Shown here: piece by piece, positions 695 to 32,400 of the stretch
Numbering within the stretch: position 1 is the first letter of the stretch
How the letters are laid out: every line of letters starts with the position of its first letter
The notes under the pieces: model-generated
Database searches by the model: none
Seen by the model: the letters and a program-made list of their open reading frames with translations, nothing else
What the model was told of the DNA's origin: nothing
Translations under genes and position numbers: made by a program
Origin: Mugil cephalus
Lineage: Eukaryota; Chordata; Actinopteri; Mugiliformes; Mugilidae
Length of the DNA stretch: 64,000 nt
Assembly: GCF_022458985.1 (NCBI RefSeq)
Contig: NC_061770.1
Location: 35,135,599-35,199,598 of the forward strand
Reading direction: 5' to 3'

Positions 695-3600
695 TGGGTT
701 GACATGCGGATGACGGTGGGCACTCAGGCCTCTGTGCCTGTGCTCCAAGCTTGTGCTGAAAGAAGAACGAGGACTTTTCTAAGCTCCTGGATGGAGCGTG
801 GAGACGCCAACTATCTCCTCATGGATGTTGCGTTTGCTCTGGAAGAGGAGCCCTCCGGTGAGGACAGCCCTCTGCAAGTTCACCTTTTCAACTCAGACAC
901 CTCCATCACAAGATTTCGCGACGGCTGGAAAGTCCTGGACCTGCGGACTTCCAAACCATTCCCAAGCAACTTCAAACCGAGCCAAATACCTGACTATCTG
1001 AATCGCAGCGTGGCGCTGAGCTTGGGCTCGGTCACCCACAGAGGATTTCATCTGGCCTTCTCCTACTCAGGAACATGCGCATTGTTAACCTCCATCAGGC
1101 TGTACTACAGGAGGTGCCCCGGCATCGTATCTAATCTGGTCTCATTCGGAGGAACAGTGGCTGGATCGGGGACCCTCCAGGGTTCTTGTGTGGAGGGAGC
1201 TGTGGAGGTTTCTCCTCCTTTTAGGCAGTGTGGTGTAGATGGAGTGTGGGGGCCACTGGAGGGGATGTGCACCTGCAAACCTGGGCATGAAGAAGTGGAG
1301 AACGCATGTCAAGGTACGGAAATAAAAGGAGCTGTTTCCCCTGCATGGATTTAATATATTAGCAAATATATTAAACTGAATGTGAAGTGGGCGGGAGTTG
1401 GACCAAACTAAAAAATTATGCACAGTGGTCACTCTTCAAAAGCTGGTTTGTGTATATGTGCGGGTGTTGTAAGTGCCACCGATTGTGCTCTGGCTCTGTT
1501 TCCCTTTCCTTGTAATCAGTGGAGGTAGAGCAGAGTGTAGTGTTAATTTAGCAAAAGCACGAGTGAGTCTGGAGGAAGTGTGGGCGGGGCATCAATATCA
1601 TGGCTCCGCCCTCTGACCGTACTGATCAGACTCTGGCTCCAAACTGACAAGATGGCAACGCTCAAATTCTGCAGAAAATACTGCAATGTTCACCAATGCA
1701 ACGCAGTAGAGACGTGTTTAGTCCATATTTATATACAGTCTATACTGTACTCAACAGAAACTAACATGACTCATGTCAGTTAACAACCAGATACATATCT
1801 GCCTCACAATAATGTGACTCCAAAACATTGAGTCATGCTGGAACTTTTTTTTTTTTCCAGTAAGCAGCTGGCAACTTGTTGAGAGATGAGGTGATCTAGT
1901 TTTTTGCTGATGCGTTTGGTATAAATATTTACATCCTGTCCTTCTTCCCATTAAGAAAGCTCATCACTTTCACATCCTCTTCCCCATAATCCTGTTCCTC
2001 CTCTCTAAGACTAACACAGTCTTATTTTTGGAGTCTGTCATTGCTCAACAGATATTATTCACAGCCTCACGTCTGAGTTTTGATGGGCTATATGTGTCAT
2101 TAATCCCATGACACACAAAGTTTATGGAGCCAATCATATACATATATATATACACACACACAAATCGAATATTGATAGAGATAGACAGATAAGCCTAGTC
2201 TGTGTTTCAAGTTTTATTTTTTTTTACTTTTTTTGTTGAAAGTCAAGTTCATAAGGAGTTAAATCAATTGCTTGCGTTACATCAAAATGAATCTGCTTCC
2301 ACAGGTCGAGCATTGTTCATAGTGATGCATGGTAATGGAAAAGGCAGATTTTGACAGCAGCTCAAGTCTACAAAATAATTAAATAACAACTTAAAAGCAA
2401 AAGGTTTAGTGCTTGACTTGGATGGTGGTCAATGAGTCCTTTCTACCAAATGTAGTAATACAAAAACAATTCACTGTTCCCGTGTCTCCAGCCTGCAGGA
2501 TTGGCTACTACAAGGCATCCAATCAGAGTGGAGGATGCCGGCTGTGCCCAGTGAACACCAGGACCCGTGGGGAGGGATCAGAGAGCTGTGAATGTGTCCA
2601 GGGTTTCAGCCGCCTGCAAACTGACCCCGATCACCTCGGTTGCACCAGTAAGAAGGAAGTGAATGTGATTCTGTAATGCAGCATTTATTTTGAGTTTTGA
2701 AATCATGGGAAAATGCACAGCACCATCTAATAAAAACAATAAACCCCACCAACCCCACCCAGCCTCTGACCAACACATTGCCTTCAAGGCTAAGTATCAG
2801 GTGTCAGCTAAGACACACCATACACAGCATGGATGTGATTCTGGATTAAACTGTACATGCTAAAGGCGCCACCCACTGGTGGTAGAGGGAAAGACAGAAT
2901 TTTATTTGCATTTTTTGGTATTTCTGCATGAAAAATAACTCAAACCCAGAACAAATGAAACTAAAATATAATGATTTTCTGTTTGTCTGTTGAAGGAAAT
3001 TAATCATTTGCACATATCTGTGAAGTGTAAAAGTAAATAAACACTTACTTTCAGCAGCATTGACAGCAGCTAAAGAGAGAACCTCTTCAGTTGTGAGATG
3101 TTGGTTTCCTCTCATCAACTGATGCTTCAGGTCCTTCCACAACATTTCTGTTGGGTTAAGGTCAGGACTTTGAGCTGTTCCTAAACATTCATCTGGATTT
3201 TCTTAAACCGTTCTTCTGGAGAACCACTTGTGTTCTTGGGTTTGTTGATGCATGACCCAGTTTCTGTCCTTCCTTCCTTGGACACATCGACACATATCCT
3301 AATATTTTCTTTTAGAGTTCACTGGTAGAGTTCAGAATTCATTGGTCCATCAATAATGACCAGATGCAGCAGAACAGGCCCAAACCAGGACACCAGCGCC
3401 CCCATGTTTCATGGCGGGATGAGGTTCTGATGCTGGAACATGACGATGCTGAAACATTTAAACCAAACTGTTCTACTCTGGTCTCATCTGTCCACTAAAC
3501 ATTGTCCCAAATGTTCTTTGTGGACAGAGAGCAGTGTCTTTGGTTGTTGAGTGGATTCATCAACATTAACATCAGCCAATGAGAGAGAGGCCTTTAGCTG

Positions 3601-6600
3601 CTTAGAAGTTCCCCTGGGTTCCTCTGGTTCCTCTCACACTATGATGGAGTGATGTTTGTTGGTGGACCACTCCTGTGGAGGGGAACAGTCGTCTTCAACC
3701 TGTCTGACTCTCTGTGGATTATTTGTGGCTTCCAGACTCTTTAGAGATGGTTTTGGAAACTTTTCCAGCCTGATGAGCAACAACAAATCTTTTTCTGAGC
3801 TCCTCAGATCAAAGTTCCTTTGTCTGTTGCCATCATTCACTTCAACATGTCCTGTGAAGATCAGACTGAGACAAATATTTGTTTTCCTTCAATAAAATTA
3901 ACTTCTGATCCTAGAGATGTACCTCACTGACATGTAATATTGGCTCATTTTCCTGAATAAACAAATACCAAGGCATAACATTTGATTTTCATTAGTTTGA
4001 TTTAATTTTCTTTGTCTTCTATGAGGTGCTGCTTGGTCGGTTTTTCTAATTCTAGACACGTTTTCTCTTCTCACAGAGCCGCCTTCTGCTCCAGTGAACC
4101 TAACAACCCACCACCTCAACGATTCTGTGCTGACGGTGACGTGGGACCCTCCTCACGACACTGGAGGCCGACCTGAGGTGAAGTATCGGGTCACATGTGA
4201 GAAGGCGGCAAGCTCTGGCAGGAAGTGGGAGGCGTGCGGGGACGTGTTTTTCCTTCCGGAGTGGCTAACCAACACATCAGTCAGCATCACGGGTCTGAAC
4301 CCACAGCTCGACTACAGGCTCTCAGTGCAAGCCTGGAACGACATTTCCACCCTGCAGGGGGCGCCACATTCATCCACCGCTACTGTTACCATTCAGAGAT
4401 GTATGTAAGCGTAAAGACAAAACGAACAAACAAGAAGTGACGTCATGTCTGAGCCTCTGTTGTGTTTCTTCCAGGGAAGGTTCCTCCTGTGGTGACCTCC
4501 ATGACCCCAGGCCTAAACACCTCTGGTCACGACCCAACCCATGCTCCTCATCGCGGGAGTCGCTCCCCGTCCGCGTGGCTCACGGTCGGTGCTTTGTTCA
4601 TTAGTCTCATGCTTGTGGCCGTATTCCTTATCGCATCTTACGTCCACTGCCGGAACCGCAACAAACGCAGGTAAAGAGGCCTCCAGCTTCTCTGTCTTCA
4701 TCCCGACTGATGCTCTTGTCATTATATTTTTGTCTTTGGGGATACAGATTAGTTTTAGCTTCACAAGCACCAGTAACTAAATACGTACTTCGTTAAAATT
4801 TTTATAAAATTCATATGTACAGTAGATTCTTTGTTAACATCAGGAATTATGAAAGCATAATTAGGCTCAGACACATGTAAAAAAAAAAAAAAAAACACTC
4901 TTGAAAATTACTAGTAAAAAAGTCAAATGTGTAAAATTAAAAAATGAGACTTCATTTAAAAATGTATCTAATTAATTAGAGGCTTTGTGATGAATTAATC
5001 TTGATTAATCGCATTTTAATCGCATACCTATATTTTTTCCAATTTTTCTTTTTTCAAATTTAAATGGATTTTAGTGGATGGCTAAATTTAAATAATAGCC
5101 ACAGACAAGAATATTTGAAACTCAAGCTCTTTTAATGACTCCGTAACACATTTCAATAATAAAAAAAAAAAGTAAAAAGTAAAAATAAATAAATAGGAAA
5201 TATCCCTGGCCAAAATTGAACGGACCTAAAGTAAAAGTGCCATTTTAAGTACTTCAAGTACTTTTTCAAAACAGTATTGACTTTAAATGGTAGAACAGCT
5301 CTGGTGGGAAACTGTGATCAAATGTGTTGTAATTAATTAATCATAATTAATGCGTTAAAGTCACACCCCTAAAAAAATATATACAAATAAAAATTAATAA
5401 ATGAAAATAAAATAAAATTATAGTATAAGCCAAGGCGATAATAATGAACTGCTGATTTCTTACAGGATGGACCAACCACTTTTGGTGGGCGATCCTGTTA
5501 TTTCTTATCGACAGCTACTAGGGTCAGATGCTGCAGCCCAGCCCGAAGGTAAGATTCATTTTCCCTGGGAGTGGGTGGATCAAACAGCTTCTTTTTTTAC
5601 TCTGACTATAGTTTCTCCTCCTTTGTGATTGTCCTAAACAACACCAGGTTTTAGGTATACAAAAAAAAAAAAGGGTGACTTATCTTCCAAGATTGGAGCT
5701 TGGCAACAGACGAGACAGGGGCATAGTCAAATCACCAACTGGATAGAAATGATGCACAAAAAGGGAGATCTTATTTGTTTTCCATGTGCTTCAGAGCCAG
5801 AGGGGGTTCTCCAGCTGTTGGGAGTACTCAGCGACCAGTTGCTGGACAGTCTGAGGGATGTCCTGGTTGAGAGACACCAGCTGACCCTGGGCAAGGAGCT
5901 GGGCAAAGGTCTGTTTAAAGGGTTCACAACAAAAATACTAATAGATGAACTTGATAAAGCAGCCCAGGATCAAAGATACTGGACTAACTTGATGATTACA
6001 CATAACAAGGGGCAATTCTAAACACTACTCACCAAATTAAAACCTTTCAACAGCTCTGAGGTGATGGATATAAAGGTAAATCAATGTTTCAATCTTGCGA
6101 CACAGGGGAGTTTGGCTCGGTGTACGAAGGCATCTTTACGCTACAGGAAGGCACTGACATCAGAGTTGCTGTGAAAACCATGAGAGGTTTGTACTGGAGC
6201 TCCAAGCCTTTATCAAAAAAACCTGGCTCTACTACTTCCTATATTTATTTATTCATTCTTTCTCTGTTCTTCTTGTACGTTCAGTCGGGATCCACAGCCA
6301 GCAAGACTTGCACGAGTTCCTGAGAGAGGCGGAGATCATGAAGAACTTTGATCATAAAAATGTTGTGGGGCTGCTGGGTAAGTGTTAAAGCTAAAACCCT
6401 GCAGGTCTAACACAGATGGACAGGCAACCATTCACACTCACACCTACGTCCAATTTAGAACATGCAAATTCCACATAGAAAGGCTTTGAATGGATACTTC
6501 AATTGAGTTATCTCTGCGCAGCTGCAGCAACTGTATGAGAGAGTGTTTTGTTTTTTGTTGCAGGGGTCACCTTACAGAGAGAGGAGGACTCTACTCTGCC

Positions 6601-9600
6601 GGTACCTTTGGTCATACTTCCCTTCTTGAAGCATGGAGACCTGCGGCGCTTCCTCATTGCTACCCGCTACGGTGATGTTCCTATGGTGAGATGCAGAGTT
6701 GTTCCATGGTGCTTCTAAAGAGCAGCCAATCAGCCACAACATTATGACCACTGACAGGAGAAGTAATTAAAATTTAAACCGTCTTGTGACAATTCAACGT
6801 TCTGCTGGCAAACGTTTGGACCTGGCATTCATTCATTCCTACAGATGTTACTTGGACATTTAGTACTCACCTAGACCCGACCAGACACCCCCACCCCATA
6901 GCAATGAAGACATTGCTGCGTGTGTTGGATTTAACCTTCCTTGGCCCTCCTCGAATGTTTCTATGTCACATAATTTGATATAAATGTGGTCTACTGCGCA
7001 TTGATTCTGCAAAGAAGACCATGCACCGCCCTAGACCAGACCACTCTATAGTAATGACACTCCTTGATGGTAGCAGCCATCCTCAACAGGATGCAGCCAC
7101 AAAAACACTTTAGGGACAAGTTGCTTGAGGTGACAAAGTAAATAGGAATTATGGAAATTAACAAAATGAACAGCTCCTTCTCAAAACCTTAGGGTCCCAC
7201 CAAAGATCACACCAGAATAATCAGAATCCCCCCACTGTGGAGTATGACAACAACAAAAACACAAACAAAGGGGATCTGAGTCCCACTAAACAAAAGAGCA
7301 AACTCAAAAGATGTGGTCCAGGCCGTTAACCCTAATGCCGTTGCAGCAGAAGTCCCGGCATTTATAGCGATGTATCATCCAAGGGCAAGAATTGGCCAGA
7401 GTTCGGCCAATAAGATCAGCAGCAGGTTGAGCTCCAATCGGGAGTTTCAGGGGCGGGGTTAAAGGGCCCAGCAGAGTGGAGGCAGGCTGGACCAGGAGGG
7501 AAAGGAGGATCACTGGGAGGAGCAAGGCTGCATCCGTAACAGGTGTTGACCTGGCCTCCGAATTCACTAGATCCCAAACTGATCAAGTATCTGTCGGATG
7601 ATCCTCTAAACCCTTAGGACCCAAAGGCCCCCCACTAACAAAATTCTCTCGCCAGACACCACAGGACACAACTGTTATGTAGGCACAAGGGAGACCTCAA
7701 CAATATCATGTCATAATGTTATGGCTGATTGATTTATGTATTTATCTATATCCACAATAAAAATACGTAACCTCAAAGGCTGCTCGGCAAGGAAGAAGCC
7801 ACTGCCCCAAACCCACCACCTTTTCACTGTTTTGGTCACAATGACCCTTCGAATGACAATCCAAAACAAACTGATACAGCATGTATGAATAAGGACAGAT
7901 CGACGTCCTTTAACGGCAGCTTGGTGAGAAAAACAATTCACAAACCATTAAGGCGTGCATATGTCTGTGAAGGTTCTCGTTGATGCAGGTCATGGTTTAT
8001 CTCCAAAGGCGTTTAAAAAAGGCAACTTTTTGAGGAGACGTTTCATCCGAGTAGCTTGTTCAGCTCCAAGGGACTGGTGATAAGTTCAAATAAATATTAA
8101 ATAACTATATATGTGGGTAAAAAAAAACCATCAGAAACTTGCTTGACTTGTTTCTATAGGAACCAGAAACTGGTGCAACTAATTCTAAATTAACAGCTAA
8201 ACCAGTCTTTTAGAAGCGTCTCCTCTAAACTCTATAAGACTAGTTGCCTTTTTTTTAAACTCCCTTTCGGATTTAAGTGTGCAGAGCGTGCAGGGGTGTA
8301 AGTCTAACACATATTCGCGGCCTCTCTTCCAGTTCGTGCCCCATCAGACCCTCCTGCGCTTCATGATAGACATCGCGATGGGGATGGACTATCTGAGCTC
8401 CAACGGGTTCCTGCACAGAGACTTGGCTGCACGTAACTGCATGTGAGAAAACCAAAGACTCCTTGTTCTTTATGACTGCGTCTCTGTGCCTCGGCTATTA
8501 GTATTCAAACATGGCTCGTAGCTGGGGAGGAAGCTGCTTATAGCGTCTCTGAGACCCAGACTGAAGGCCTCCCACTAGACTGTGTCAAGAAATATTACAA
8601 CACATATTCTATGCTTTCATCTGTTTCTTTTCTTTCTTTCTTTGCCCAGGTTGGGTGATGATCTCAGGGTGTGCGTTGCTGACTTTGGCCTCTCCAAGAA
8701 AATCTACAGCAGCAACTACTACCGACAGAAAATAGCCATCCGTGTGCCCATCAAGTGGATGTCCATGGAGAGTCTGTCCGAGTCCATTTACACCACCAAG
8801 AGTGATGTGGTGAGTTTGTGTTTTGAATTCGTAGGACAGACATGAGTACATTTACTTTAAAGCTGATCTCATGTTCCTGTTGCCTCAGTGGTCGTTTGGA
8901 GTGACCATGTGGGAGATTGTTTCCCGGGGGAGGACGCCTTATCCTGGGGTCTCCAATCACGAACTTCTGGACCTGCTGCTGTCTGGACACCGGCTGAAAC
9001 CACCCGAGGACTGTGATCAGAAACTGTGAGTTCCTGTGAATATTTAGGGACATTTCTTATTTGATGTGAGAGATTTACTTGATATATAAACCAATCAGCC
9101 ACAACATTATGACCACCGGCATGAGCTAAGTAAATAACATTAAAGCCATACACTGTTCTGTTGGGAAACTTTTGGACCTGGCATTAATTCGTTGGTGTGG
9201 ATGTTACTTAGACATAACAATGACTCTCCTTAATGGCAGTAACCAACAAAAACGGTTTAGGAACAACTCACAAAAAACATCAAAAACAGCACAAGGTGTT
9301 GACCTGGCCTCCAGATTCACTAGATCCCAAACTGATCAAGTATCTGTGGGAAGATCCACCATAGAGGCCCCTCCCCTCAACCCACAAATATTAACTTTTT
9401 TGTGCAAAAGTAGGGTGGATGTGCAACTGATGTAAACATAAACATACCTGACATAAACGTACATACATGCACTGTCAGCTTCTCTAATGCTAATATTGCA
9501 GCGTGCGTCTGGGATTTCATCTGGGGACAGAGTCAGAATGTGATTGGCTCAGCAGCGATGGGGGCGGGGCCTACTGTGGTGCAGGAGGCTCAGATTGACG

Positions 9601-10475
9601 GGCCCAGTGAGGCGTTCTGTGTGAAACTGTGCTCTGTTGAGACAGGTCCTGTATCACTGAATGAGTGAAGAGCTGCCATTTATCCCTCTACTAAAATGTG
9701 TTGGATTCATGTTAATGTGTATTAAAAGAAATCTAAATTTATGGGGGAAAATTGTGGGACAAATTTAAAAAAAATATATAGAATATATGACTAATCAACC
9801 AAAGATTGCACAACCCACTTGCAGTACCTCCACGGGCCCCCTAGGGGTCATGGACCCCCTGTTGAAGACCTAATGTCTACTGGTTATATTAAATGGTAAA
9901 TGGTCTTGTTTTTATTTAGAGCTTTTCTACTATAAATCCTCTCTATTAGCTGCATTTAATGAAAACATCAACCAATGCTGCAGATGCATCCATAGTTATT
10001 ATAAAGGTTAATTCAAAAATGTTCATTCCTTGATGAGTCACAACTGTTTTGGAGGCACACAATATTAGGAAAGGTGGTCATAATGTTATGCCTGATCGGT
10101 GTACGTAGAAATGCAAACTCTAAACCGACTCTACATCTCACCCCCGAACACAGTTATGAAGTCATGAGGAGCTGCTGGGACAGGGATCCGGCCCGGAGGC
10201 CTGACTTCAGGGCGCTAGCCGAAACCCTGAGAGGCCTTTTGTCCGAGCTGCCGGTCCTGGAGCCGAGCGAAGAGGCCAATTACATCAACCAGGGCCTGGA
10301 GGTCCTCACTCACTCTTCTCCTTCTCCTGCCTCTCAAGAGCAGCAGGCAGATTCTGGCGGACGATGGGAGAACGTCTACCTGCCTTCTCCCGTGGGAGCG
10401 GCTGCAGCCAGAGTCGAGGATACGGAAACAGAGGACGGTTACCTTAAGAGTGGTGTCTGCTCAGTAGATAAGTGA
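695..10475 (+). CDS. Chimeric receptor tyrosine kinase: Eph-like ectodomain joined to a TAM-like kinase (5' partial)
   Basis: Thirteen exons join in frame: 695-1313, 2492-2647, 4077-4400, 4475-4670, 5466-5548, 5795-5908, 6106-6186, 6285-6377, 6564-6685, 8333-8442, 8650-8809, 8889-9025, 10154-10475. They give 838 codons plus stop; the start is missing. Residues here are counted from the first readable codon. About 1-190 is an ephrin-binding domain ([20 protein letters not shown]). About 191-258 is the Eph cysteine-rich module ([15 protein letters not shown]); its 156-base exon in phase 1-1 is of Eph type. 259-366 is one fibronectin III domain starting PPSAPVNL; Eph receptors normally have two. 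401-423 is the membrane segment. The juxtamembrane [15 protein letters not shown] and the kinase are TAM-like: glycine loop G496-V503, K521, HRDLAARN 624-631, DFG 644-646, activation-loop Y652/Y656/Y657, KWMSMESL, then [11 protein letters not shown] and [15 protein letters not shown]. All catalytic residues are present. There is no SAM domain or Eph tail; the C-terminal tail carries YINQ, VYLP and DGYLK tyrosine sites. The role (a membrane receptor kinase sensing a cell-surface ligand) is inferred. Confidence 0.88.
2866..3900 (-). mobile_element. Tc1/mariner-like transposase remnant in an intron
   Basis: Read on the minus strand, this stretch carries Tc1-type transposase landmarks in order, but in different frames and separated by stops. 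These are a [17 protein letters not shown] block near 3460-3500, a [21 protein letters not shown] block near 3370-3415, and a C-terminal [18 protein letters not shown] block near 3105-3170. The last part remains open from 3145 down to 2846. It is a decayed copy lying in the intron between the cysteine-rich and fibronectin exons of the receptor kinase. Ends were not defined by terminal repeats, so the limits are approximate. Confidence 0.7.
6726..7733 (+). mobile_element. TA-type Tc1/mariner-like MITE, copy with internal insertion
   Basis: The left end reads CCAATCAGCCACAACATTAT and the right end is the inverted ATAATGTTATGGCTGATTG. The interior shares blocks with the full copy at 37701-38398, such as CTAGATCCCAAACTGATCAA and the AAACGTTTGGACCTGGCATT block. 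It is about 300 bp longer than the full copy. The extra sequence, roughly 6930-7540, is interrupted by unrelated and duplicated segments, which suggests later insertions. It lies in the kinase intron between exons 6564-6685 and 8333-8442. Confidence 0.75.
7975..8275 (+). repeat. Degenerate dispersed fish repeat (GAGACGTTTCATCC-type)
   Basis: The block around 8030-8070, reading GGAGACGTTTCATCCGAGTA and followed by a TTCAGCTCC-like run, matches a motif I recognise from highly repeated fish sequence. A related inverted fragment (GAAGAAGCTACTTTGATGAA) occurs near 52299. No coding potential. Family assignment is from memory only. Confidence 0.4.
9091..10103 (+). mobile_element. TA-type MITE interrupted by a second repeat, just before the last kinase exon
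   Basis: The left end is CCAATCAGCCACAACATTAT at 9091. The right end, ATAATGTTATGCCTGATCGG followed by TGTA, finishes near 10103. The interior carries the CTAGATCCCAAACTGATCAA block at about 9320. A GC-richer segment at about 9485-9850 splits the element and matches 46430-46840, so it was probably inserted later. The right end lies only about 50 bp upstream of the AG acceptor of the final kinase exon at 10154, so the branch point and pyrimidine tract sit beside transposon DNA. Confidence 0.75.
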
Positions 10476-26482: not shown

Positions 26483-29400
26483 TCAGTCGACGGGGCCCTG
26501 GAAGATGAGTTTGATGTGGCCCTGCTCCCCTGTCAACCAGGTACCACAGAAGGGGCAGGCAGCATGAAAGGCGTGGGTGCCGTGTGGTAACGGGATCTGG
26601 CTCCACCCCACTACTGTCTTTTCTGAGCATACGTGGCCACAGGGACAGAAAGCATGGGTGGGTGGACCCGCATCAAGGTACAATCCGCCCTCACAGCCCA
26701 GCCACAAGGGCACATAGGGGCCTACTCTCCGGCACATGGGGCACTCCCTTTCCCCAGTGCTGGCCGGCGCTGTGCCCCCGGGGCCGGCGGGGCCCTTCTC
26801 CTTGCGGTAGCCCCAGTTATGGTATCCGTGTACATGCCCGCAGTTGACGTAAACCCAGGGCTGTTTCTTGTCGACGATCTCGCGCTGGGCCAGACTGGGG
26901 AAGGCCAGGGTGTTGAAGCCGACGGGACACTGGGGCCGGGCGGCGTTCAGCTCCTGGCGAAGGGACTCCAGCTGTTTGAGGGTGGGGGTGTGGCGCAGTC
27001 CGGCGGGGGTCCTCCACAGCAGCGTGGCCCCGCAGAGGTCGATCAGAGAGCCGTCTTGGAGGGTGTTTGACTCGTTTTCGACCTTCGGAACAGAAGATGG
27101 TAAATTAGCGCTGTGAAGACCAGGGATGGGATGGAAACATCGTTATTATCGAGAGAATGAAGCTGTGAACACATCTGCAGGACGTCGTAGTGTTACACTT
27201 TGATACCGCCACATGATGGCACTATGAGCAACTAGTATATTAGAGAGAATTTATCCATCACTGTCACTGCTGTCGCACTCCATATAAATATCGATAGTAT
27301 CGATACGAGGCCAGTATCGGTATCGGATCGATACTAGTGTGATGAGACTGATACTAAAAGTAAATACAAAGGAAAGAGACTCTTCATTGTATTGTCTTGA
27401 ACTAGAGAATGGACCGTCTGAGCTGTCCCTCTATGCTGATTGGTTCTGAGCTGGTCACATGTTTCATGGGCGCCATGTTTGCTACATCTAACAAATATTC
27501 ACCCATAGAGAAGTGGCAATAACAGAGAATAAAGCTGGATTAAGAGTTAAAATATGCCACAGTGCTCAGCCTATGGCTCCATCACAGGATCAGGAAAACA
27601 CTGAGGAAACTCCACCTTTTCCCCAGTGCACAAAAACGTTATGGGAGTTATGAGAGAAGAAAATTAAAAGGAAGAACTGGATGTCAACTGATTTCCCTGT
27701 TATGTAATGAGGTCAATGTCAATGTTTCCCTTTGACATTTGTCAAGATTTTATATAGAAAAAATAAAGTCATACCATCATTAATGTGAACCTTGATCTCA
27801 AAACCATCGACCTAGCCTTGTGCTAGCTAGTTATCTAGACTAAAGGCTAAAAATAGCAGCTAGCATCATATATACTGTGTGTGAATGTAATTTACAGCCA
27901 TGTAGATAGTCGGGACTGTGCTGCCGTGACGGACCAATTTTCTTGCGCACTTACCTCAGCGCCATGTGAGGCCAAAATATGACAAATGTATCCCATCAGC
28001 CCCCTCTCCCCTTACCAGTTTCCCCCTCTGTTGGGCTGAACGTGTCTCTCTGAGGGCAAAGACGTTGCCACAGACCGAGATTTCCCTCCAGACGCCCGGA
28101 GCCGGCTCAGACACGAACTCCCCCGCCGGGTGCATCACCAGCACCCCATTGGTGGTCAGGCCGTCCATTAAGCCGTCCGATGTCCTCCATTTGGCAGCCC
28201 GCTCCTGAGAAACCGCCACACAAATAAGGCAGACATAAATGTTAGGGAAACAATGGGGAGGCGCAGCGGGATGATAGTGTAGGTGGATCTCAGTGGGGGC
28301 TGGAGGGGGAAAAAAAAAAAGACCAAAAACGCTAGCGTTGCTTTTCTCTGCTGCTATATTTAGCTCGGTACAGAATGACTACTGTACTGACTAGCGCACA
28401 GTGATGCACCCACGCCTAAGAATAACCTCATCCCTGAGAGAAAGAAAGCCTGGATTATGAACAAAAAAATAGCCCAGATGGAATGAAACAGCAGAATTGC
28501 ACCAGGCTGGGGATTTTGCTCAATAAATATGTGCAGTATCAGTGAGTAAGGCCAAACAACCGACAAACCTTTTACATGTCAGCAAAGCTTAAGCTGCACT
28601 TTTTAACCCTAAGTTTAAAGTGAACGCTGTGACTTGTACGGACTCATCCACCAACTCTCCACAGCTCTGATTTAGGAGTCCATTTGTAGAGGTTTGCTGC
28701 ACCAAAGTTCCACATTGTTTAGTTAGTAGCTCTATACATCCACTAAACACAAATAAATATGTGAATTACTGATCATGCCAAATGTTGACCCGAAGCTAAA
28801 AATATCACGCTAGCAAACCACTGAAAGACGAGTCCAATCATAATCAAATTTAACTCTTTGCTAAGGTGCAAATCAGTTGTTTGTGCATGAGTAGTGGGCG
28901 AAAACTTATCGTACACAATGAAACGCCAAAAACAATCCGCCATCTCACGATAAATATGATGGTTGGGATGTCGTACTCAACAGCTGTAGCTCAATTGTGG
29001 CTAACAAGGCTCCTCATCAATAATGTGGAGCTGGTTCAGATATCTGAAGGTGCATGTGGAACAAACTTGTCCCACATGCAAGGTTTGCAAAAAAATATAA
29101 AGGCTAAGGATAGCAACACAAAAGATTTATTCCACCCCCCGAAGTACAACTACAAACCAGAGCCAGCAAATGAGTCAGCCACATCCTCCGGTAACCAGAC
29201 CAGACATCCCCGATTTCTGGGGACAGACAGTCCCCGTTTTTGGATGACCTGTCCCCCGGCTAAAGCTGTCCCGGAAAATGTCCCAGATTTTAACGTTTTG
29301 TGAATGAGAAGAAAAAATGTTGCGCTTAGACTACAGTTATTACGGTATCCGGTCGCACTGCTATTAACATTAGAGACACAGCAGTTTAAATGTGTTTAAA

Positions 29401-32400
29401 TATTAATAAATATGATGAAATGACGAAACAGGAACAATTTCTTTATTGTCACATATTTATTAATATTTAAACATATTTAAACTGCTATGTCTCCAATGTT
29501 CATTCCGTACGATAAGCAAATCAAGCCACGGAAAGATAGAACCAAAGGGAAGTTTTCACATGTCAGACTTGTTTGATTAGTCACTACAGTTTTCTCCATA
29601 ACTCCCTACTTAAACCTGTAGTTAAGTAGCTCATTTGACTATAACTGGCCTCATCTTGGAGCACCTAAGAGACAACATAGAGACAGACTGAGTCAAAAAC
29701 ATGGACTGGGATTATGATATTTCTATATTCTGTGACAATGAAAACAGACTGTGAATAAATGATGACATACAAGAAGCACGAGCTTCAACAAATGAGTCAA
29801 AACCTCAGGGGAAACCTTCCTCACATTAATACGTAATGTTAAAACAGAAATGCCACATTTTGACTTGACTAATTGATGCAACTTCACCGTTTACATCCTG
29901 ATCTTAAATTACACTATGAAGACACCGCTGTATGTGAAGGACTGAACCTTCCTGGAACCGTCTAGAATGTTTCTAAATCACAGAATATGGTAGAAATGCA
30001 AGGTCATGGTCTACTGCAACAAGGGAGACCTACATAATATCAGGTGCGTGGTCATAATGTTATGCCTGATCAGTCTAATTATGGGACAAATGGAACCCCA
30101 TACACTTCCTGTGTACGTGAACATAATACCCCACTAAGTGGTGAAGAGTGCTATATGTGATTACAGATGTTCAGTATCATGACTGCTGCTGGAAATTCAC
30201 CAGAATCTCAAAGATTCTCCCCAATATAATTAATTAGCCGTATAATAGTTGTTCTGTGGAAACGTAGTCTCGATAGTTCTGAGGGTTTCACATGCCGCAG
30301 TCAGTTTGTTTTTACGGGAGGTCCCGATGAATCTTTTATGGGGTGAAGTCATGCATCCATGAGAAACGTTGTTGTTGGTCTTTGTGTTAACCCAGATGTC
30401 TCTGACCGAGTTAGGAAATTTATATAAAGAAGAATATCTGACTCTCTTTTAAATAATAAAAAGGATTAGTAAAGGCTAGCAGCATGGTGGTTGTGGAAAG
30501 AAAAGGTCTTACACTGAACCAAACACCAGGAGTCAAAAATATAGAATACTGAATAAACAGACGATCTACTAGTGTCAACCAACATTACTTTAGAAAAATC
30601 CCACAACACAGCACCAGATAAAAATGTCACAAAAAGTATAAATAACACAAGAGGAGTCAGCTCAGTTGGTTCCCCAGTAAAAGTAAATGAAAAGGAAAGA
30701 GAACCTTCATTGTATTGTCTTGAGCTCATCTTTTTTGCTTTCTTCTGACCACTCCTCACACTAGGACCTTCATTTGGGTCAGGACGTATCGATCTAAATA
30801 TCGATAGTATTGATACCAAGGCCAGTATCAGCATCAAATCGATACTAGATGTAGTGATGAGATACTTTTGTTACGGTTTCTTTTCTGTGCGTCCAGTAAA
30901 TTACTTCTCAGGAGTTCATACAAGAACAGCTTCTCTCTAAGTCTGTGCGCGGCAAGAGCGATATCGGTAACGCCGATGCTAGCCCTGTATTTACTTGGTA
31001 TCAGATCGATACCAAAATTCCCAGAATCGTCCATCCCTGCTCCAAGGAAGCATCATGACTTATTCTGTTGTTTGAATGACAACAGGTAGATACAGGTTAA
31101 TTATCTACTTTCTGCCATCTAGTGGATAAGGATGTAATTGTTCTCCCTGTCACTATATGTTGCTCAGATAGACCAACAAAGACTAATTATTTGCAGTGAA
31201 CCAATGATAATCTTCGGGCCAATTAAGTGAAATTGGATAATTTTCCGCCAGCACAGTGGTTGGGTGTCACTGTACTAGAACATATCATGATATTAAAAAC
31301 GTATGAAACATTACGATAACCGTGTTTCCCCACAAGATTTCGTAAGACCCTGACATTTTTCTCAAAGTGCATGATCGACGATACTAGCCTTGTATTTACT
31401 TGGTATAGGAACGATACCAACACTCCAAGTATCGGCCGCCCTACCAACTATCTGAACTATCTGAACCTTCTTGAGTTTAACTTAAAACGAATCTTGCATA
31501 ATTTAGCTTGGGAAGACCCTTATATTGCCTTCCCCTCGTTTTTCTAAACTAGTCACTATAATACTGTGCACTTCTTTGCAGAATCCATGGGCCACAGTAG
31601 ACCACATATATGTGATTACGTGCTATAGACGGGGAAGAGACAGGTCAAATTTGACCTGGAGGACGATAGGAAGGTTGAACCAAGACTGCTGGAGAACTCT
31701 GCCTCGTGTTTCATGCCGGGTCACGTGCGCTAACACAATCCCGAGGCCGTCCTCACAGCTCCCATGTCTCATGTGGGTGGCACAGCCATGTCCCCTGCTG
31801 TCGCTCTCGCCGCGATCTCCATGGTTACCAGTCCCTGAGCATTTTTTGCCGCCCACGGGGGAAAAAAGCGAACACTCACCCCCAGGAAGATGTTCTTGGA
31901 GGAGTCGAAGCCGGCGGCGTAGATGCGGGCCGTGTAGGGAGCGCTGCGTTCGCACATGATGCGGCAGGCGTAGCGGGAGATGGTGCTCTGGGCCGACTGG
32001 CCTCCTCCTCCTCCTCCGCCACCACCTCCTCCTCCACCTCCACCGCCGCCGTCCCCCGCCGCGCCCACGCCCTGACCACCGCCGCCGCTGCTGCTGCTGC
32101 CCGCTGTGTCCGTCACCACAAAGTCAATCATGCTCTCTGTGGACCGGCCGATCTACAAAAACCAGGAGAACATGTAGTTACTGTTGATGAAAAAGACTTA
32201 AATATGCAACCGTTCACTACAGCATAAGAAGAGAAAGTGTTTGTGCACTTGACACTAACCTGGAACATGTCTGTGTTGGTGTCATGGGTGTACTCCACAA
32301 TGACAGAGTGGCTCCGTGACAGTGTGTACGAGATGCTGTGCTGGCTTTTGTTGCTGAGTGCCTGCCAAATGGGAAAAAGATATTAGCCGGGTCGCACGAC

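Follow-up and report, generated by a model that had tools for sequence, protein, structure and literature searches.

An Eph-type ectodomain joined to a TAM-type kinase in one receptor gene of Mugil cephalus, other teleosts and bowfin

Can a single vertebrate gene carry the outer half of one receptor tyrosine kinase (RTK) subfamily and the inner half of another? The question is raised by a gene at the start of a 64,000-nucleotide stretch of the Mugil cephalus genome (GCF_022458985.1, contig NC_061770.1, positions 35,135,599 to 35,199,598 of the forward strand; the whole stretch is referred to as the window), which a first-pass annotation had read as a receptor with an Eph-type outside and an inside of the TAM (TYRO3, AXL, MERTK) type. 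A vertebrate RTK subfamily is, as a rule, recognised by one constant combination of ectodomain and kinase. The window holds 13 exons of the gene (695..10475, plus strand) that join in frame over 838 codons, each preceded by AG and all except the last followed by GT, with the junctions 4400/4475, 4670/5466 and 5548/5795 and the catalytic motifs all present. Two more 5' exons lie upstream of the window, giving a complete receptor of 15 exons and 888 amino acids with a single terminal stop. The exon reading agrees with the annotation that the junctions are in frame over those codons, that the catalytic residues are in place and that the gene looks functional, and it retains the first three Eph-like exons; the later, kinase-side exons number ten rather than nine (3 + 10 = 13 in the window). 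The mullet gene is one functional-looking receptor, Eph outside and TAM inside, and is built as follows (window coordinates, with negative positions upstream of the window):

-998..-911, upstream of the window: exon 1, signal peptide
-408..-347, upstream of the window: exon 2, start of the ligand-binding domain (LBD)
695..1313, plus strand: exon 3, Eph LBD and Ephrin_CRD (Pfam and PDB sequence search); phase 0 to 1, starting AG/TGG
2492..2647, plus strand: exon 4, Eph-type cysteine-rich EGF-like module (Pfam Ephrin_rec_like, PDB search); 156 bp, phase 1 to 1
4077..4400, plus strand: exon 5, single fibronectin III (FN3) domain aligning with the first FN3 of EphA2 (Pfam, PDB search); phase 1 to 1
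4401..4474, plus strand: putative fusion intron between Eph-derived and TAM-derived exons; 74 bp, phase 1, the phase at which the Mugil mertk transmembrane exon also starts
4475..4670, plus strand: exon 6, linker and transmembrane helix; phase 1 to 2, equal to the mertk transmembrane exon
5466..5548, plus strand: exon 7, juxtamembrane segment; phase 2 to 1, the mertk juxtamembrane exon also starting in phase 2
5795..5908, plus strand: exon 8, kinase start, LGKELGKG; phase 1 to 1
6106..6186, plus strand: exon 9, kinase, VAVKT lysine
6285..6377, plus strand: exon 10, kinase, alpha-C glutamate
6564..6685, plus strand: exon 11, kinase hinge
8333..8442, plus strand: exon 12, kinase catalytic loop HRDLAARN
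8650..8809, plus strand: exon 13, kinase DFG and activation loop NYYRQ
8889..9025, plus strand: exon 14, kinase C-lobe
10154..10475, plus strand: exon 15, kinase end, tail tyrosines YINQG, NVYLP and DGYLK, stop

The Eph signatures ascribed to the first three window exons were recovered by Pfam, by PDB sequence search, by fold search and in an LBD tree. Pfam assigned Ephrin_lbd, Ephrin_CRD, Ephrin_rec_like, one fn3 and a tyrosine kinase to the window protein, the Ephrin_lbd score being barely above threshold in Mugil (27.3 against a cut-off of 27) and 62.6 bits in bowfin. In the PDB search with the ectodomain, rows 1–11 were all Eph receptors, led by EphA2 (E 1e-56), EphA4 and EphB2 (to 8e-46). 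An AlphaFold (AF2) model was used for P0001, ‘TYRO3-like [Mugil cephalus]’, a protein that maps to a second copy of the gene lying 18 kb upstream and is 91% identical over 96% of the window protein (mean predicted local distance difference test, 77.6; predicted template modelling score, pTM, 0.45). Among the best 50 rows of a Foldseek search of this model against the PDB, rows 1–11 were Eph ectodomains and rows 12–50 were TAM kinases, almost exclusively MerTK apart from two AXL chains. The 14 chimera LBDs formed a single clade against 14 Eph LBDs (support 100/100), and attempts to place the chimera LBD with one particular Eph failed, the chimera LBDs forming a long branch of their own.

For the kinase half, the PDB search (best 60 of 2527 matches) returned TYRO3, MER and AXL as best at 387 to 377 bits (E 5e-115), and the best non-TAM kinases were one EGFR entry at 308 bits and then MET at 235. 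Identity of the chimera kinase was 50–60% to TAM kinases compared to 34–39% to a lamprey Eph kinase. A kinase tree was built from 15 chimeras, six TAM entries and five further kinases. In it the chimeras adjoined the clade of AXL, MERTK and TYRO3, which had support of 99/96 (56/91 for the clade of chimeras), and a constraint joining the chimera kinase to Eph was rejected (approximately unbiased test, pAU = 0.005). Nesting within AXL, MERTK (MER) or TYRO3 was weakly rejected (pAU = 0.018, 0.034 and 0.046, respectively). Searched and treed separately, the two halves were placed apart, the ectodomain with Eph and the kinase beside TAM, and the assignment of a TAM-type, non-Eph kinase stands on the PDB search, the tree and the positions of its introns.

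Intron phases indicate where the halves were joined. The LBD exon starts with AG/TGG in phase 0 in the chimera, and it does so at 12 of 13 Mugil Eph loci compared, the start of the thirteenth not being resolved; these 13 are the loci, out of 33 genome matches, where the LBD is unbroken. Exons 4 and 5 of Eph genes are 156 bp and about 336 bp, both in phases 1-1. From the transmembrane exon on, intron positions and phases of the chimera equal those of Mugil axl and tyro3 and of the mertk exons for the transmembrane, juxtamembrane and kinase segments, over the parts of these three genes that were compared. As the exons are Eph-type up to exon 5 and the phases TAM-like from the transmembrane exon, we infer that the 74-bp phase-1 intron 4401–4474 is the fusion junction. 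The earlier suggestion of an exon-shuffling fusion near the transmembrane and juxtamembrane introns is the best explanation, at the phase-1 intron beside the transmembrane exon. Under this mechanism, exons 1–5 of an Eph gene (signal peptide, LBD, cysteine-rich modules and first FN3) would have supplied the outer half, and a TAM-family gene the exons from the transmembrane one onward (transmembrane, juxtamembrane, kinase), the two sets meeting at a phase-1 intron; this event would have happened once, in the neopterygian lineage.

Using two protein database searches (best 120 of 159 and best 120 of 4866 matches, with nearly all rows taken as this gene) and a further profile search (118 proteins, 11 with the chimera architecture and most others unrelated kinases), about 152 chimera rows were listed in total, carrying the database names TYRO3, Mer, UFO, Eph, Tie-1 or hypothetical. 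Among the matches listed were percomorphs, salmonids, pikes, smelts, hake, herrings, catfishes, characins, loach, suckers, milkfish, eels, tarpon, bonytongues and elephantfishes (P0255, P0258-P0260) and bowfin (P0257, Amia). The bowfin, bonytongue and eel copies came from the search with 4866 matches. The architecture thus recurs across many teleost orders and in bowfin, and no such row came from gar, sturgeon, shark or tetrapods among the best 120 of 159 and best 120 of 4866 matches. A Pfam scan (E 0.01) of 53 orthologues, hand-picked from the roughly 152 for taxonomic spread, found Ephrin_lbd, Ephrin_CRD, fn3 and kinase in 53/53 and Ephrin_rec_like in 52/53. The Pfam scans of the window protein and the 53 orthologues yielded no SAM family and no immunoglobulin (Ig) family, and the window protein has one fn3, compared to the two Ig and two FN3 domains of the TAM ectodomain. 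Eight proteins of 887–903 amino acids (P0002, P0051, P0066, P0074, P0075, P0080, P0084 and P0234) sit on sequences whose longest contig is 2,841–3,910 bases; most of these contigs are too small for 14 ordinary introns and so look like spliced transcripts. The chimera is an old shared fish lineage, not peculiar to the Mugil genome, and since all 14 LBDs fall in one clade a single fusion before the bowfin–teleost split fits best. The presence of the same fused gene from bowfin to modern bony fishes argues for an overlooked kind of receptor rather than a local accident. One protein of the conger eel Conger conger (P0253, 1243 amino acids) carries the EGF-like and FN3 unit three times in tandem, through either exon duplication or a merged gene model.

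The ligand was approached through the LBD. In EphA2 and EphB2, Arg103 latches ephrins (PMC10647059). The latch Arg and the adjacent cysteine pair occur in 13/13 aligned Mugil Eph LBDs and 0/14 aligned chimera LBDs; a lamprey Eph has the latch Arg, with cysteines in different alignment columns. At the latch position, 13 of 14 chimeras in the smaller alignment have Glu; in the larger one, 47 of 53 have an acid there, Glu or Asp, which on the aligned sequences is a charge reversal relative to the Eph Arg. None of the 53 orthologues has a cysteine in the latch segment, and the other Eph LBD cysteine pair is retained in all of them. Across 190 pairs of 20 orthologues, identity was 31–87% in the ectodomain (median, 44) and 67–95% in the kinase (median, 77), with the kinase higher in 190/190 pairs. 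Given the acidic latch, the lost disulfide and the fast-evolving ligand domain, the ephrin-like cell-contact sensing proposed in the first-pass annotation is not supported, and GAS6/PROS1 would not be expected as ligand either, the ectodomain having shown no Ig domain. A ligand other than a canonically bound ephrin would instead engage the fast-evolving Eph-type domain and cluster the receptor.

In the signalling half the catalytic and docking residues are nearly invariant. The catalytic K, E, HRD, N and DFG and the activation-loop YY were found in 53/53 orthologues, the YxN site after the kinase in 52/53 (one gap) and the second tail tyrosine in 51/53 (the rest gaps). The YxN site aligns with the YIN of TYRO3, and Mugil axl has YVN there. 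In AXL the YxN site is used by Grb2 and other adaptors, and TAM receptors have roles in survival, migration and phagocytic or anti-inflammatory output. A kinase of this type is predicted to autophosphorylate on the activation-loop YY pair, and the conserved tail site may recruit adaptors as in AXL/TYRO3, resulting in a TAM-like output. Overall, the sequences are most likely those of a TAM-type signaller with a non-canonical ligand.

The upstream tandem copy (C1:35116668-35127678; L011, L012) has the same exon order. The two copies are 95% identical in the LBD, 97% in the 5' part including introns and about 92% in the 3' parts, with ratios of nonsynonymous to synonymous change (dN/dS) of 0.20 for seven kinase exons, 0.65 for the ligand-binding and cysteine-rich domains (only 12 changes) and 1.45 for the transmembrane exon. 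Homology of the upstream copy fades within the last exon, after the YxN site, and because the NVYLP and DGYL tail motifs are missing there, the window copy is the complete one. The repeat CAGCCACAACATTATGACCA, at up to three mismatches, occurs at 16 sites in all (0.01 expected). In two introns, the window copy has stretches of ~1 kb (6731-7727 and 9096-10094) bounded by facing pairs of this repeat, which resemble DNA transposon ends.

The neighbours include a pellino gene (window 26483-32152, minus strand; Pfam RING and FHA) and a Ras-family (RAB1-like) gene (Pfam), along with frames that read as KCNK7/6-like, CD248-like and somatostatin-receptor-like and, less surely, a possible EHBP1L1-like frame. 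Two near-identical single-exon somatostatin-receptor-like frames lie ~6 kb apart outside the window on the minus strand (L021 from ~4256, L022 from ~450). The set of pellino, Ras-family, KCNK7/6-, CD248- and EHBP1L1-like genes presumably resembles human 11q13.1-q13.2 and the paralogous regions that hold TAM genes.

Taken together, these results favor a single RTK gene lineage of neopterygians, derived from one fusion of Eph and TAM exons and responding to a ligand other than a canonically bound ephrin, with a probability of roughly 0.85. A fuller account, which we hold at slightly better than even odds, is that these receptors form a vertebrate RTK subfamily not recognised so far, with a fourth TAM-type kinase whose ectodomain was exchanged once, before the bowfin–teleost split, for that of an Eph; this Eph ectodomain has since given up canonical ephrin binding, with its charge-reversed latch, and is evolving fast toward another, perhaps cell-surface or non-self, ligand. 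Several points weigh against these readings. The LBD branch is long and no donor Eph is pinned down; nor is the donor TAM, each pairing with AXL, MERTK or TYRO3 being rejected only modestly in a tree with distant, long-branched outgroups and a weakly supported chimera clade (56/91). Unlike the tree placement outside the trio, the bowfin kinase scores AXL highest (404 compared to 381 bits). The proposed Eph origin of exons 4 and 5 draws on sequence likeness, and the proposed TAM origin of the transmembrane exon on its phase, as compared with the mertk exon. Finally, the low pTM of the P0001 model makes the relative arrangement of its two halves uninformative.

The simplest alternatives concern the gene itself. 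Two adjacent genes run together by a gene model or the assembly would hardly recur, identically ordered, in both tandem copies, in over 100 of the proteins listed and on ~3-kb contigs, or leave a key intron of only 74 bp. Convergence of an Eph receptor's kinase on TAM motifs, for which no evidence emerged, would not be expected to yield a kinase this much closer to TAM than to a lamprey Eph, TAM intron phases, no SAM family in the Pfam scans and a rejected Eph constraint (pAU = 0.005). Both readings were discarded and are considered extremely improbable. A receptor that still binds a fish ephrin, differently and through an altered LBD, so that cell contact drives TAM output, would differ from the best explanation in its ligand only. 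It draws on the universal Pfam LBD match (53/53), the resemblance of the model to Eph ectodomains and the retained second cysteine pair (53/53), set against the absence from 14/14 chimeras of the latch Arg and cysteine pair found in 13/13 Mugil Ephs, the acidic latch, the cysteine-free latch segment and the low median identity of the ectodomain relative to the kinase, and is regarded as unlikely. Compatible with the fusion lineage, and given a little less than an even chance, is an origin of the kinase as the fourth ohnologue of TYRO3/AXL/MERTK from the two vertebrate genome duplications (2R), one that lies at the counterpart of human 11q13, has disappeared from mammals and had its Ig-FN3 ectodomain swapped for that of an Eph. 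The kinase branches beside the TAM trio, and the neighbours resemble those of human 11q13.1-q13.2, a lead rather than a test, but placement outside the trio could equally mean a pre-2R duplicate.

No description of an Eph/TAM chimera was found in the literature searched, a search that did not cover the RTK census of Brunet et al. 2016 (10.1093/gbe/evw103), which reportedly adds five vertebrate RTKs and may include this gene. The fusion-receptor lineage has apparently been overlooked so far. The parts available of PMC6993872, PMC8662651, PMC5940169 and PMC10970190 make no mention of such a gene, and a trout egg study names a ‘TYRO3-like’ gene that may or may not be the chimera (PMC7459965). As a natural swap between two well-studied RTK subfamilies, kept in bowfin and the sampled teleosts, the receptor offers a test of how modular the coupling of ligand input to kinase output is. 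The results also suggest that the names TYRO3, Mer and Eph have been given to many fish entries that belong to another gene, and work on the expression and orthology of TAM and Eph genes in fishes could be misled by this.

Compared to Eph receptors, the chimera shares the order of LBD, cysteine-rich, EGF-like and FN3 modules, the start and phase of the LBD exon and the model fold, but has one FN3 where Ephs have two and lacks the latch Arg, one disulfide and the Eph kinase, with the SAM family not found. Compared to TYRO3, AXL and MERTK, it shares the kinase sequence, the intron positions and phases read, the activation loop YYRQ and the YxN tail site, whereas no Ig family was found and thus no GAS6/PROS1-type ectodomain; its kinase is a branch beside the trio, and where the PDB TAMs have KWIAIES or KWLALES it has KWMA(I/M)ES and variants. 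Fish entries named TYRO3, Mer, UFO or Eph were taken as orthologues on sequence and architecture, each name reflecting one half of the receptor only.

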